A DNA stretch of 25,210 nt from a virus. Positions 16,205-22,362 of the stretch are shown one piece after another. The translations under genes were made by a program, and so were the position numbers. The notes under the pieces are model-generated. The model was not told where the DNA came from and ran no database searches. It worked only from the letters and a program-made list of their open reading frames with translations. Within the stretch, counting starts at the first letter, position 1; every line of letters begins with the position of its first letter. The stretch is taken from IMG/VR virus record IMGVR_UViG_3300021197_000265, positions 1 through 25,210 of that record. The stretch is one strand, 5' to 3'.

Positions 16205-16504
16205 ATGAAGTTGGAGGTCAAGCACAACTGCCCACTGAACAACTTTGAGCCTTGCAAGCAAATGGACTGCGCTTGGTTTATCGAGATTCGTGGGACGCAC
16301 CCGCAGACAGGAGAGGAGATGTCTGAGTGGGGTTGCTCTATGGCTATGCTGCCTGTGTTGTTGATTGAGAATGGTAGGCAGACCAATCAGGCTGGCGCAG
16401 CCATTGAGAGTTTTCGTAATGAGATGGTAAGGGCTAACGAAATAAATAATGAAATTATGACTGCTGCTGTTGAGGGGCGTAACCCAAAGTTGATTGAGGG
16501 CTGA
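16205..16504 (+). CDS. Four-cysteine protein between the fibre genes
   Basis: The 99-residue protein has cysteines at 9, 17, 22 and 44 in the frame [17 protein letters not shown] and [13 protein letters not shown], followed by a helical C-terminus with [18 protein letters not shown] recognise this pattern from other marine phage genomes but know of no function. The cysteine spacing could bind zinc or an iron-sulphur cluster, or form disulphides. It sits between two fibre genes sharing an N-terminal module, so fibre assembly or modification is possible. Confidence 0.75.
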
Positions 16505-16505
16505 T

Positions 16506-17618
16506 ATGACTAAATCAAACATCACTGAATACGATAATACAGCGGCAAACAATACTGATGTTGAGGATGTGCCTCTGGGTGAAAATCAGATGTATCCGTC
16601 TAACGTAAACAATGCGTTCCGTGAGATTATGGCAGACCTTGCTGACATCAATGACGGAACTGTCGCCCTAACCAGCCCCGCCGCTGGTTCTATAAACATT
16701 ACTGGAAATGTTACTGTCGGCGGCACTGTTGACGGGCGTGACGTTGCCGCTGATGGGTCTAAACTAGACGGCGTTGAGGCTTCTGCTGATGTAACTGATG
16801 CAAATAACGTCGGCGCTGCATTGACGGCATTTTCTACTGGGACTGACGCTATCAGCACAGACCTTGTTCCATATTACGATGTGAGTTCTGGGGCGTGGGA
16901 AAAGTCAACAATATCAAATCTTTCTCTTGTTGGCCCTACTGGTCCTGCTGGTCCTACTGGGCCGACTGGTTCTACTGGTCCTGATGGTCCTACTGGTCCT
17001 GCTGGGCCTACTGGTCCTGCTGGGGCGGACGGGGATGATGGTGCTGCTGGGCCTACTGGCCCGACTGGCCCTACAGGCTCAACAGGTCCGACAGGTCCTA
17101 CTGGTCCGACAGGTCCGACAGGCCCTGCTGGTGAGTTGTCTGGCAATGTCGAGATGACTGGCACGTTGGATATGAACAACTACGACATTAACGGGGTTGA
17201 CCAGATTTTTCATCACGGCGACACAAACACTTATATGCAATTTCACGCATCTGACCAGTGGCGTGTTGTTACGGGTGGCACTGAACGCCTTGAGGTAAAC
17301 AACAGCCGAATTACGGGTTCAGGTATCGCAATGGCTTACGGGCGATATAACGGCGCTAACAACACCATTGCATTTGATAAGGACATAAGTTCCCTTACAG
17401 ATATTGGCACTGGTCGCCACAACATAAACTTCTCTGTCAGCATTACCAGCACTTATACTTGCTCTGTGGGCGGCGGTGATTCGAGCAATGATGCAGGTCG
17501 AATGACAAACCCGTTTGATGGTGGCAATTTTAGCTCATCATATGTGCGGATTAGAACTTCAACAGGCAGCAGTAGTAAGACAAACGTCGAATATATGAGC
17601 CTGTCGGTTTTTAGGTAA
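16506..17618 (+). CDS. Collagen-like tail fibre
   Basis: The 370-residue protein has the same N-terminal module as the 15554 fibre ([20 protein letters not shown], 30-49), then a phage-fibre spacer containing [19 protein letters not shown] (83-101). An uninterrupted collagen-like stretch of 22 Gly-X-Y triplets follows (143-208), mostly GPT and GPA with one GAD-GDD-GAA interruption of proline. A C-terminal beta domain (about 215-370) is probably the receptor-binding or trimerising head. Collagen-like triplets form trimeric triple helices and are known in phage fibres. ATG 16506 with GAGGG upstream is chosen over an in-frame TTG at 16494. Confidence 0.88.
16932..17129 (+). repeat. Collagen-like Gly-X-Y coding repeat
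   Basis: There are 22 consecutive 9-bp units encoding Gly-X-Y, mostly GGT/GGC-CCT-ACT. Proline is in the X position and Thr or Ala in the Y position. Such low-complexity DNA is prone to copy-number change. Confidence 0.9.
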
Positions 17619-17622
17619 GAAA

Positions 17623-18021
17623 ATGACTGATTATCGAATAATATATGATGACCCTGACGAGCCAAATGAGCCTGTGAAAATCGTCACGCCCGCGCCTAAT
17701 TGGATGAAAGAGGCAATGGCTGGTAATTTGCCAATCATAAGCATAATGATGGAACTTAAAGATGAAGAAGTTTATGCCGTGGAGAATGGCATACATATGG
17801 ACGACTTCAAACACACTCCTGAAAAGGTAGAGGCTCAATTTACTGGCAAGAGAACAGGACCATTGACCGAAGAAGAAGCGATTGAGTATCTTTGCTTAAA
17901 GGATTTACCGAGAAAGTGCTGGGGCGAAAATCACAACAGACCAATGTTTAAGATAATTAAGCATAGTGATATACCCACAGATAGAACCTTTCGTGACGCG
18001 TGGGAGATGAATAATGTCTAA
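17623..18021 (+). CDS. Small protein after the fibre, possible fibre chaperone
   Basis: The 132-residue protein has an acidic N-terminus (DDPDEPNEP), a middle with AQFTGKRTGPLTEEEAIEYL, and a C-terminus SDIPTDRTFRDAWEM. The last segment resembles a motif, D-x-PTDRTFR-x-AWE, that I associate with small proteins encoded next to phage fibres, which by position may be assembly chaperones. It overlaps the next gene by 8 nt, and that gene carries a related sequence. No membrane segment is present. Confidence 0.65.
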   Translation: MTDYRIIYDDPDEPNEPVKIVTPAPNWMKEAMAGNLPIISIMMELKDEEVYAVENGIHMDDFKHTPEKVEAQFTGKRTGPLTEEEAIEYLCLKDLPRKCWGENHNRPMFKIIKHSDIPTDRTFRDAWEMNNV

Positions 18022-18367
18022 TTTTGTGAAGCTGGGTGGCACAGAATATGCCCTAGACGACTACACCGTGCCTGCCGATAAGGCTCTACGGGAAGCGTGG
18101 GAAGTAACGTCCGAAACTGCAATCACCGTCAATATGCCAGCGGCGCGAGATATTTGGAGAGAGAAAATTCGTGAAGCGCGTGTGGCGGAGTTTGAGAAAC
18201 TTGATACTCAATTCATGAAGGCTCTTGAGACATCTACCAGCACGACAGAAATTGTTGCCCAAAAACAAGTGTTGCGTGATGCGCCTAATCACCCTGATAT
18301 TGAAGCTGCCACAACGCCAGATGAATTGAAGGCAGTTCAGCCAATACCAAATGTGACTGTTGAATAA
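18014..18367 (+). CDS. Related small protein, possible fibre chaperone
   Basis: The 117-residue protein repeats the motif of its upstream neighbour as YTVPADKALREAWEV (residues 18-32). It then adds a helical part (NMPAARDIWREKIREARVAE) and an ending in QKQVLRDAPNHPDIEAATTP, DELKAV. In other phages I recall both parts in one protein, so this gene looks like the complete form and the preceding one a variant without the second half. It is tightly packed: 8-nt overlap upstream and 1-nt overlap with the oxygenase gene. Confidence 0.65.
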   Translation: MSNFVKLGGTEYALDDYTVPADKALREAWEVTSETAITVNMPAARDIWREKIREARVAEFEKLDTQFMKALETSTSTTEIVAQKQVLRDAPNHPDIEAATTPDELKAVQPIPNVTVE

Positions 18368-18915
18368 TGCGTCAATCTTGGCAGTTTTGGCAAAAAGGGG
18401 TGAGTCAAGAATTTATAGACTTGGTGCAGGAGCAGGCCGACAAAGTTAAATGGGCAAGGGCCACAACATTCAGTCAAAATGACAGGGAGAGCCTGTCAAG
18501 CACACGCCGAAGCAATGTGAAATGGCTAACTGGGCAGGAAAACATACACAACCTTTTGTGTAATTATGTTTTATCCTCAAACGAACAACTCAATGTGCAG
18601 GTGTCGAACAAGTGTGAAATTCAGTTCACACAATATAACAGCGAAGATAAGGGGTTTTACGGATGTCATCACGATATAAATTGGGAAAACCCTGAACCGC
18701 ATGACCGAAAGATAAGCATCAGCATATTGCTGTCAGACCCATCAGAATTTGACGGCGGGGAGTTGCGGTTTCACGAAGTGACAAACGATGGCATCGAATG
18801 GCAAAAAGGGTCAGTTTTATGCTTTCCGTCGTTTTTGCAGCACTCCGTATCACCCGTCACGCGAGGCACACGCAAGTCACTGGTCGCTTGGTTTTCTGGT
18901 CCTCGTTGGCGATAA
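18367..18915 (+). CDS. 2-oxoglutarate/Fe(II)-dependent oxygenase, prolyl-hydroxylase-like
   Basis: The 182-residue enzyme would use 2-oxoglutarate, oxygen and Fe(II) to hydroxylate a substrate. The double-stranded beta-helix signature is present: GCHHDIN supplies the HxD pair (H101, D103), GGELRF (130-135) follows, then LQHSVSPVTRGTRKSLVAW supplies the distal H159 and R169, ten residues later, to bind 2-oxoglutarate. This matches the prolyl 4-hydroxylase/PiuC-like branch, which also occurs in cyanophages. The substrate is not shown by the sequence. Being in one operon with a collagen-like fibre two genes upstream makes fibre proline a candidate; repair of DNA or a host target are alternatives. 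Confidence 0.85.
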   Translation: MRQSWQFWQKGVSQEFIDLVQEQADKVKWARATTFSQNDRESLSSTRRSNVKWLTGQENIHNLLCNYVLSSNEQLNVQVSNKCEIQFTQYNSEDKGFYGCHHDINWENPEPHDRKISISILLSDPSEFDGGELRFHEVTNDGIEWQKGSVLCFPSFLQHSVSPVTRGTRKSLVAWFSGPRWR

Positions 18916-21065: not shown

Positions 21066-21488
21066 ATGGCCTTTTCGACTGTGCGTAATGCAGTCCAGAT
21101 TGGAAGAATCGGTGAGCTACTGGCTCAGGCGGTCTTTGAGGAGAATGGCTACAAGACAGCTCGTGTAAACCACGAGGGCTTTGACTTAATTATCTTTGAC
21201 GATGAGGGTGAGAACTACCGCGTCGAAGTCAAGGCGTGTTCCACTAGGGACAGGCACAACCACCGATACCAGTTTATGACCAGTCGCGGTAGCAAGACCA
21301 AGCGCATGATGACGACATCAGACGCAGACATCATCTGCTATGTTGCTTTAGATATTCGCCGCTGTGTGATAAGATGCACAAGTACAATTTCAAGGAAGAG
21401 GACAACCGTAAAGACATTAGAGTTTGAGCGGCAAGAGTCTTCAATGATAAACGAAGCCTTGTGCAAGGTTAGGAAAAGACGATGTTAA
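21066..21488 (+). CDS. PD-(D/E)XK nuclease-like protein
   Basis: The 140-residue protein contains GRIGELLAQAVFEENGY (E17), GFDLIIFDDEGE (D40) and YRVEVKAC (E54-V55-K56), the conserved acidic residues and ExK of the PD-(D/E)XK fold in the right order and spacing. A basic segment follows (RGSKTKR), then strands with several cysteines near the C-terminus. It could degrade or nick DNA or resolve branched intermediates; the substrate is not shown. Finding it within the membrane/lysis segment is unusual. It overlaps the holin-like gene by 7 nt. Confidence 0.75.
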   Translation: MAFSTVRNAVQIGRIGELLAQAVFEENGYKTARVNHEGFDLIIFDDEGENYRVEVKACSTRDRHNHRYQFMTSRGSKTKRMMTTSDADIICYVALDIRRCVIRCTSTISRKRTTVKTLEFERQESSMINEALCKVRKRRC

Positions 21489-21891: not shown

Positions 21892-22362
21892 ATGCCGTCC
21901 GATATGCGCCTTTCACCGCACTTCACCTTGCAGGAGATGACAAAGAGCCAGACGGCGCTGCGTTTAAGCATTGACAACACGCCCAATGCAGAGCAGGTCA
22001 AGTCACTCAAAGAGCTATGCGAGAACGTGCTAGAGCCTTGTCGAAAGCATTTCAAACGCGCCTTCGTGCCGTCATCTGGCTTCCGTAGCAAGGCGCTGTG
22101 CAAGGCCATCGGTAGCTCTGCCAAGAGCCAACACGCCAAAGGTGAGGCTGCTGACTTCGAGATTCGCACCGTTGCCAACATCGACTTGGCTAAGTGGATT
22201 CGGGACAATCTGGAGTTTGACCAGCTTATCCTAGAGTTCTATGATGGTATCGACCCGAACAGTGGTTGGGTGCATGTCAGCTATCGTGCTGACGGCAATA
22301 ATCGCAAGCAATGCTTGAGCTATGATGGGAAACGCTATGTATCGGGATTGGATGAAGCGTAA
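21892..22362 (+). CDS. M15-type peptidase, probable endolysin
   Basis: This is probably the cell-wall-cutting enzyme released through the holin. The 156-residue protein shows the M15A/VanY-like zinc peptidase pattern: SSGFRSKALCKAI (61-73), SQHAKGEAADFEI supplying zinc ligands H81 and D88, FDQLILEF with a probable catalytic E115, and WVHVSY with the third ligand H128. There is no signal peptide, which fits holin-dependent release. ATG 21892 or 21904 may be used; neither has a strong ribosome binding site, so coupling to the holin gene 17 nt upstream is possible. Confidence 0.87.
   Translation: MPSDMRLSPHFTLQEMTKSQTALRLSIDNTPNAEQVKSLKELCENVLEPCRKHFKRAFVPSSGFRSKALCKAIGSSAKSQHAKGEAADFEIRTVANIDLAKWIRDNLEFDQLILEFYDGIDPNSGWVHVSYRADGNNRKQCLSYDGKRYVSGLDEA

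Follow-up and report, generated by a model that had tools for sequence, protein, structure and literature searches.

Does a bacteriophage with a collagen-like segment in its tail fiber also encode an enzyme that modifies this collagen? The question is raised by a viral DNA of 25,210 nucleotides (positions 1 to 25,210 of the IMG/VR virus record IMGVR_UViG_3300021197_000265; hereafter, the window), in which a collagen-containing tail fiber-like gene precedes a gene for a 2-oxoglutarate (2OG)-Fe(II) oxygenase, here called OX. The collagen repeat, an intact active site, a predicted fold resembling that of prolyl hydroxylases, and a linkage between the type of enzyme and the type of collagen are found in this and related loci. 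OX is likely a phage-encoded hydroxylase that modifies the collagen of the fiber just upstream, most probably at the proline in the X position of its Gly-X-Y triplets.

16506..17618, + strand: tail fiber-like protein of 370 amino acids (aa), ATG start, with an N-terminal region common to many phage fibers, the collagen segment, and a C-terminal domain
16932..17138, + strand: collagen-like segment, the putative substrate, identified by the PF01391 match and triplet count
18367..18915, + strand: OX, 2OG-Fe(II) oxygenase of 182 aa with intact H101-x-D103, H159, and R169; proposed collagen (X-position prolyl) hydroxylase

Collagen-like segment of the fiber

Residues 143 to 211 of the fiber consist, by triplet count, of 23 uninterrupted Gly-X-Y triplets, 17 of which carry Pro at X (GPT, 12 times; GPA, 4 times; and GPD, once). 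The triplets without Pro include two copies of GST, and the last triplet is GEL. Neither Pro nor Lys is found at Y in any of the 23 triplets. The segment belongs to the collagen-like repeats of the Pfam Collagen family (PF01391; E value of 5.2e-9), and its score of 36.2 bits, against a curated cutoff of 27.2, rules out a chance repeat. The fiber open reading frame (ORF) has a possible alternative TTG start upstream, at 16494. The first-pass annotation of this DNA had reported 22 Gly-Pro-Thr/Ala-type triplets; the repeat is there, but the number is 23, GEL included, and only 17 contain Pro. It had correctly placed the prolines at X and the four oxygenase residues at H101-x-D103, H159, and R169.

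The length of the collagen segment differs among close relatives, from 23 to 25 triplets in some to 54 in others (compare L006:2015-3316 with window positions 16932-17138; L numbers denote individual loci). The long form in L006 contains GPI and GPV triplets. This variation suggests repeat expansion.

Linkage of OX to collagen fibers

Viral contigs were scanned with an oxygenase alignment that had been seeded from fiber-linked loci; the 80 loci obtained were chosen on the oxygenase sequence alone. In this OX-only scan, every one of the 51 OX loci whose upstream sequence extends over 3 kb or more has a collagen ORF upstream, on the same strand and within 5 kb; if 2 kb or more is accepted, 65 of 66 loci do, the exception being L140. 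The distance from collagen to OX has a median of 782 bp and ranges from 207 to 3701 bp, and the intervening genes vary. L158 and L148, considered as OX loci without collagen, were rejected as such, both having Lys-rich collagen. In the pooled loci, OX is accompanied by collagen in 109 of 109 cases (48 of 48 once near-duplicates are collapsed), figures that are secondary in that the pooled sets were partly ascertained by fiber, GPT-repeat, or PLOD queries.

A head-matched control took as its query only the first 144 residues of the fiber, a stretch free of collagen, and also comprised 80 loci, counted where at least 2 kb of downstream sequence was present. In this set, OX stands behind 14 of 15 collagen fibers and 0 of 18 non-collagen fibers (Fisher P value of 1.8e-8, uncorrected for relatedness). 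Within the group of the window phage, L009, with a fiber head 91% identical to that in the window, has neither collagen nor OX. Loss of co-occurrence had been named in the first-pass annotation as the outcome that would sink its proposal; in both scans the two genes stay together.

The genes that flank the fiber in the window show a different distribution:

16205..16504, + strand: conserved gene of 99 aa, directly 5' of the fiber; also in relatives that lack both collagen and OX (L008, L009, L010, L022, and L024)
17623..18021, + strand: fiber-cassette gene of 132 aa, retained in relatives without collagen and OX (L010 and L088-L091)
18014..18367, + strand: gene of 117 aa, phrog_20196, with weak Phage_tail_APC similarity below the cutoff; retained in relatives without collagen and OX

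The gene order is thus fiber, 132-aa gene, 117-aa gene, and OX, with neighbors overlapping or abutting. The tight gene run had been recognized before, with OX placed second after the fiber; it is in fact the third gene past it, with two genes between. Both intervening genes are present in the collagen-free relatives L088-L091, and both are kept in L010 and L087, of the same group as the window phage, where the fiber has six triplets only and another fiber-like gene takes the place of OX. They therefore serve as an internal control for hitchhiking: as they persist without collagen, OX is not mere baggage of the fiber cassette. For the same reason, these two genes were rejected as parts of the collagen system.

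Family assignment and predicted structure of OX

OX matches PF13640 with an E value of 3.7e-16 and 60.3 bits (cutoff, 27). H101, D103, H159, and R169 are invariant across 51 OX homologs with identity down to ~27%, and the HxD...H iron site, the basic 2OG-binding residue, and the fold of the model place the protein in the 2OG-Fe(II) oxygenase superfamily. phrog_61 carries only the category "moron, auxiliary metabolic gene and host takeover."

The AlphaFold2 model, built with the 51 homologs (predicted local distance difference test [pLDDT] score of 89.6), was compared to known structures with Foldseek and VIA-align. Its best matches in PDB are the Pseudomonas putida prolyl 4-hydroxylase (P4H; 4iw3, Z score of 17.4) and the viral collagen prolyl hydroxylase (vCPH) of PBCV-1 (5c5t, Z score of 17.2), followed by human PHD2 (17.0) and an algal P4H (16.6). 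PiuC-type enzymes and the lysyl hydroxylase LH3 match with Z scores of 14 to 16, behind the prolyl hydroxylases. A structure prediction had been suggested in the first-pass annotation as a check, and the model indeed comes closest to prolyl hydroxylases, with Z scores of ~17; since these values differ little, the substrate cannot be read from the fold by itself. Like OX, vCPH is a small viral protein with a single double-stranded β-helix domain (root mean square deviation of 2.8 over 163 residues); unlike OX, it is a chlorella virus enzyme, and the two share ~18% identity.

The matches to vCPH, the algal P4H, and PHD2 show that OX shares the catalytic-domain fold of the animal collagen prolyl 4-hydroxylases (C-P4Hs). 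However, it differs from them in three respects, and its assignment to this type was rejected. Enzymes of the animal type bind the C5-carboxylate of 2OG via Lys, not Arg, whereas OX has R169, invariant in the 51 sequences. The substrate of the animal type has Pro at Y (Gly-X-Pro), a position where the window collagen has none. Finally, animal C-P4Hs contain peptide-binding and dimerization domains and form an α2β2 tetramer with protein disulfide isomerase (PMC9676403), whereas OX is a single domain with no space for more. An Arg equivalent in use to R169 is found in the mimivirus lysyl hydroxylase (R887; PMC5802723). The curated sequence models and PDB sequences closest to OX are those of PKHD-type enzymes, PiuC and YbiX (NF003974, 54.8 bits; 3dkq, 2.3e-11). 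Nevertheless, OX falls far beneath the cutoffs of these families (143 to 399 bits; for PRK05467 in NCBIfam, 143 at best) and was not filed with them either.

A PLOD-like enzyme in relatives of the window phage

In many relatives, OX is followed by a protein of ~580 aa (e.g., L018:10035-11777, L013:4844-6586, and L026:3350-5092), which is absent from the window. It contains a PLOD glycosyltransferase domain (PF25342; E value of 8.9e-43, 146.7 bits, cutoff of 27), a GT25 domain (PF01755; E value of 2.4e-7, 31.2 bits, cutoff of 24), and a 2OG oxygenase domain that scores just below the cutoff (PF13640; 26.4 bits against 27). Sequence matches include human LH3 (1.8e-31), mimivirus R699 (6e-26), the solved viral-type collagen lysyl hydroxylase 6ax6 (1.9e-6), and COLGALT1 (~2e-4). 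H505, D507, and H554 are invariant in 8 sequences, and Lys564 stands where LH3 and L230 have Arg. With the two glycosyltransferase domains and a hydroxylase domain with its HxD...H motif, the protein of these relatives qualifies as a PLOD-like collagen lysine-modifying enzyme, and its domains appear to correspond to the three enzymatic activities that yield glycosylated hydroxylysine in collagen. The AlphaFold model of this protein, made from 8 sequences, is poor (pLDDT of 64). In L172:5924-7176, the PLOD-like gene is in two ORFs, reflecting a frameshift or an assembly error.

The distribution of this protein follows the lysines of the fiber. In the OX-only scan, it is present in 41 of 41 loci with Lys-at-Y collagen (GAKGQKGE) and in 0 of 16 without such Lys. 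The pooled loci give 99 of 99 with Lys at Y versus 1 of 26 others, the exception being a truncated fiber that starts with QKGQKGQKGE. A scan for the PLOD-like protein yielded 490 confirmed viral stretches, and it is encoded in the cultured Roseobacter phage CRP-6 and Synechococcus phages S-CAM9, S-PRM1, and S-8S55, the fibers of which have 22 to 26 Lys residues at Y. The enzyme content thus follows the substrate composition of the fiber collagen. This linkage is strong independent evidence for collagen-modifying enzymes in these fiber cassettes; in the window phage, OX is the only such enzyme, and the collagen is Lys-free.

Phylogeny of OX

In a tree of 61 rows, all collagen-linked OX rows fall into one clade (100/99), which spans phages from the podovirus-like group of the window to Kyanoviridae and is joined by a single bacterial subclade. 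The outgroup consists of cyanophage and pelagiphage oxygenases from S-RSM4, Syn30, P-SSM7, HTVC023P, AG-345-E15, S-H38, S-SM1, and S-SCSM1. No collagen was detected in their records; therefore, the wider oxygenase family has other substrates, and the linkage to collagen marks one clade.

In an Erythrobacter contig (L304:2-2179), an OX homolog lies immediately behind a collagen-like ORF of 517 aa with 100 triplets; the contig may stem from a prophage, or the two genes may be a bacterial pair of collagen and hydroxylase. In two cyanophage fiber cassettes (L390:10710-11875 and L393:10728-11908), the OX homolog is immediately preceded by another gene annotated as a 2OG oxygenase; the OX profile does not detect this additional protein.

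Target residue and alternative explanations

Lys is excluded as the collagen target of OX in the window, since the collagen there has none. Among the 4811 triplets of the linked fibers, Pro occupies X in 2094 and Y in 42, so that the earlier caution about an X-position specificity was apt. CRP-6 combines a Pro-poor Lys-type fiber (Pro at X in 6 of 97 triplets) with the PLOD-like protein, and no separate OX was found in its genome of 44,927 bases; L380 has a Pro-free, Lys-rich fiber and no OX. Pro at X is favored as the target by the fold, by the scarcity of Pro at Y, and by the Pro-poor or Pro-free fibers that lack OX. A triple helix can be stabilized by 4-hydroxyproline in the X position when Thr occupies Y; the open-licence papers searched contained nothing direct on X-position hydroxyproline.

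Accordingly worded as a mechanism, OX would be an Fe(II)/2OG protein hydroxylase that acts on the collagen segment of the fiber encoded upstream, hydroxylating X-position Pro of Gly-Pro-Thr/Ala on nascent or unassembled chains inside the infected cell. The hydroxyls would stabilize the triple helix of the fiber shaft or change its surface. In relatives with Lys at Y, the three-domain enzyme (GT25-like, PLOD-type glycosyltransferase, and lysyl hydroxylase-like) would hydroxylate and glycosylate those lysines. The idea that the phage modifies its own fiber, already put forward in the first-pass annotation, gains support from the OX-collagen linkage and the predicted fold; the reaction, its target (Pro at X), and what it does to the fiber are inferred.

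Several observations weigh against this reading. An OX relative is found in only ~8 of the ~76 loci with a collagen ORF among 79 viral loci retrieved with a GPT-repeat DNA pattern. Collagen can thus be expected wherever OX occurs, but not the reverse. Such a pattern would fit a modifier that makes the triple helix better without being required for it: the collagen of EPclA, a phage tail protein, forms a stable helix unmodified (PMC3368898). L140 has OX and no collagen in the 2.7 kb upstream. L338, a short contig, keeps OX next to a Pro-free collagen fiber and leaves a strict linkage of OX to Pro doubtful; its OX is closest to that of L150, which has a Pro-rich fiber, so a recent fiber exchange is possible. 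The bacterial OX subclade (SAR116, other alphaproteobacteria, and Myxococcota; L300-L318) is chromosomal, shares ~40% identity with OX, and lacks adjacent collagen, which occurs elsewhere in the genome only in the two Myxococcota assemblies of the subclade. Finally, a similar predicted fold would not prove a similar substrate, given that PiuC-type hydroxylases and LH3 also match the model well.

OX might act on the collagen segment at a residue other than Pro (for example, a Y-position Thr, Ser, Asp, or Ala) or on non-collagen residues of the fiber. OX is linked to collagen in general, Thr is the most frequent Y residue (2579 of 4811 triplets), and L338 pairs OX with Pro-free collagen. Such a target is nonetheless unlikely: the nearest folds are those of prolyl hydroxylases, and the collagens of CRP-6 and L380 contain Thr, Ser, or Ala, yet these loci lack OX.

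It is also improbable that OX hydroxylates a host protein or another phage protein and travels with fiber cassettes for reasons unrelated to collagen. The absence of OX behind head-matched non-collagen fibers, the neighboring cassette genes that do not follow collagen, and a linkage that holds over a deep clade in unlike phage types all speak against this, even though the best structural match, 4iw3, is a P. putida P4H bound to EF-Tu, which that enzyme modifies, the SAR116 chromosomal homologs lack collagen within 6 kb, with none detected in the rest of those assemblies, and cyanophages carry many 2OG oxygenases without collagen. Simple hitchhiking, in which a single event brought collagen and OX together in a mobile cassette and OX has since become nonfunctional or dispensable, would fit a single OX clade and the many collagens without OX, but is very hard to reconcile with catalytic residues that stay invariant down to ~27% identity, a linkage retained despite varying distances and intervening genes, and an enzyme set that shifts with collagen composition.

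Other genes of the window

The window further encodes an SU10-type portal (PF23899; E value of 2e-228), a terminase, a scaffold, and a major head protein, followed by the tail-fiber cassette. On the 3' side of the cassette are an ORF weakly similar to Mrr/NO VEIN-type nucleases, below the cutoff (21066-21488), and a Peptidase M15, likely the endolysin (21892-22362).

Comparison with known systems

Mimivirus, like the phage relatives, encodes collagens, its own 2OG hydroxylase, and collagen glycosyltransferases (the lysyl hydroxylase/glucosyltransferase L230, the glucosyltransferase R699, and R655; PMC9546862, PMC5802723), and the domains are of the same kinds as those in the PLOD-like protein. 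In contrast to mimivirus, the viruses described here are tailed bacteriophages, in which the enzymes are linked to tail fibers; the galactosyl-like, glucosyl-like, and hydroxylase-like domains of the relatives are in one 580-aa chain; and the window phage has OX only, along with Lys-free collagen. The Bacillus anthracis prolyl 4-hydroxylase hydroxylates both X and Y prolines of Gly-X-Y collagen-like peptides, as summarized in a passage of PMC8968730 that cites Schnicker and Dey 2016. Unlike OX, it is a cellular enzyme and favors Y, where the window collagen has no Pro. EPclA, a tail protein of Escherichia coli O157:H7 prophages, resembles the window fiber in its collagen triple helix and its preference for Pro at X, but was reported without prolyl hydroxylation (PMC3368898). 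In the published view, phage collagens are unmodified, viruses and bacteria being without the needed enzymes (PMC3368898), and giant viruses are the exception to this absence in viruses (PMC8968730).

No phage-encoded collagen hydroxylase or modifying system was found in the open-licence papers searched, which is no proof of absence. Giant viruses are already known to have a system of this kind; what those papers did not contain was one in bacteriophages, with the enzymes divided according to substrate composition. Self-modification of collagen, as seen in animals and giant viruses, probably occurs in phages too. We moderately favor the broader view that tailed phages carry complete collagen-maturation cassettes, with an X-position prolyl hydroxylase for GPT-type collagen and a fused lysyl hydroxylase/galactosyl-/glucosyltransferase where Lys is at Y, the enzyme set being matched to the fiber sequence, so that fibers bearing hydroxyproline and possibly glycosyl-hydroxylysine would be made in bacteria.

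The question can be tested in the cultured phages S-CAM9, S-PRM1, S-8S55, and CRP-6, and the finding points to small enzymes for making hydroxylated recombinant collagen in bacteria. If true, it provides a substrate for one clade among the many unexplained 2OG oxygenases of marine phages and means that collagen hydroxylation, and in relatives also hydroxylysine glycosylation, operates in the tail fibers of marine bacteriophages.
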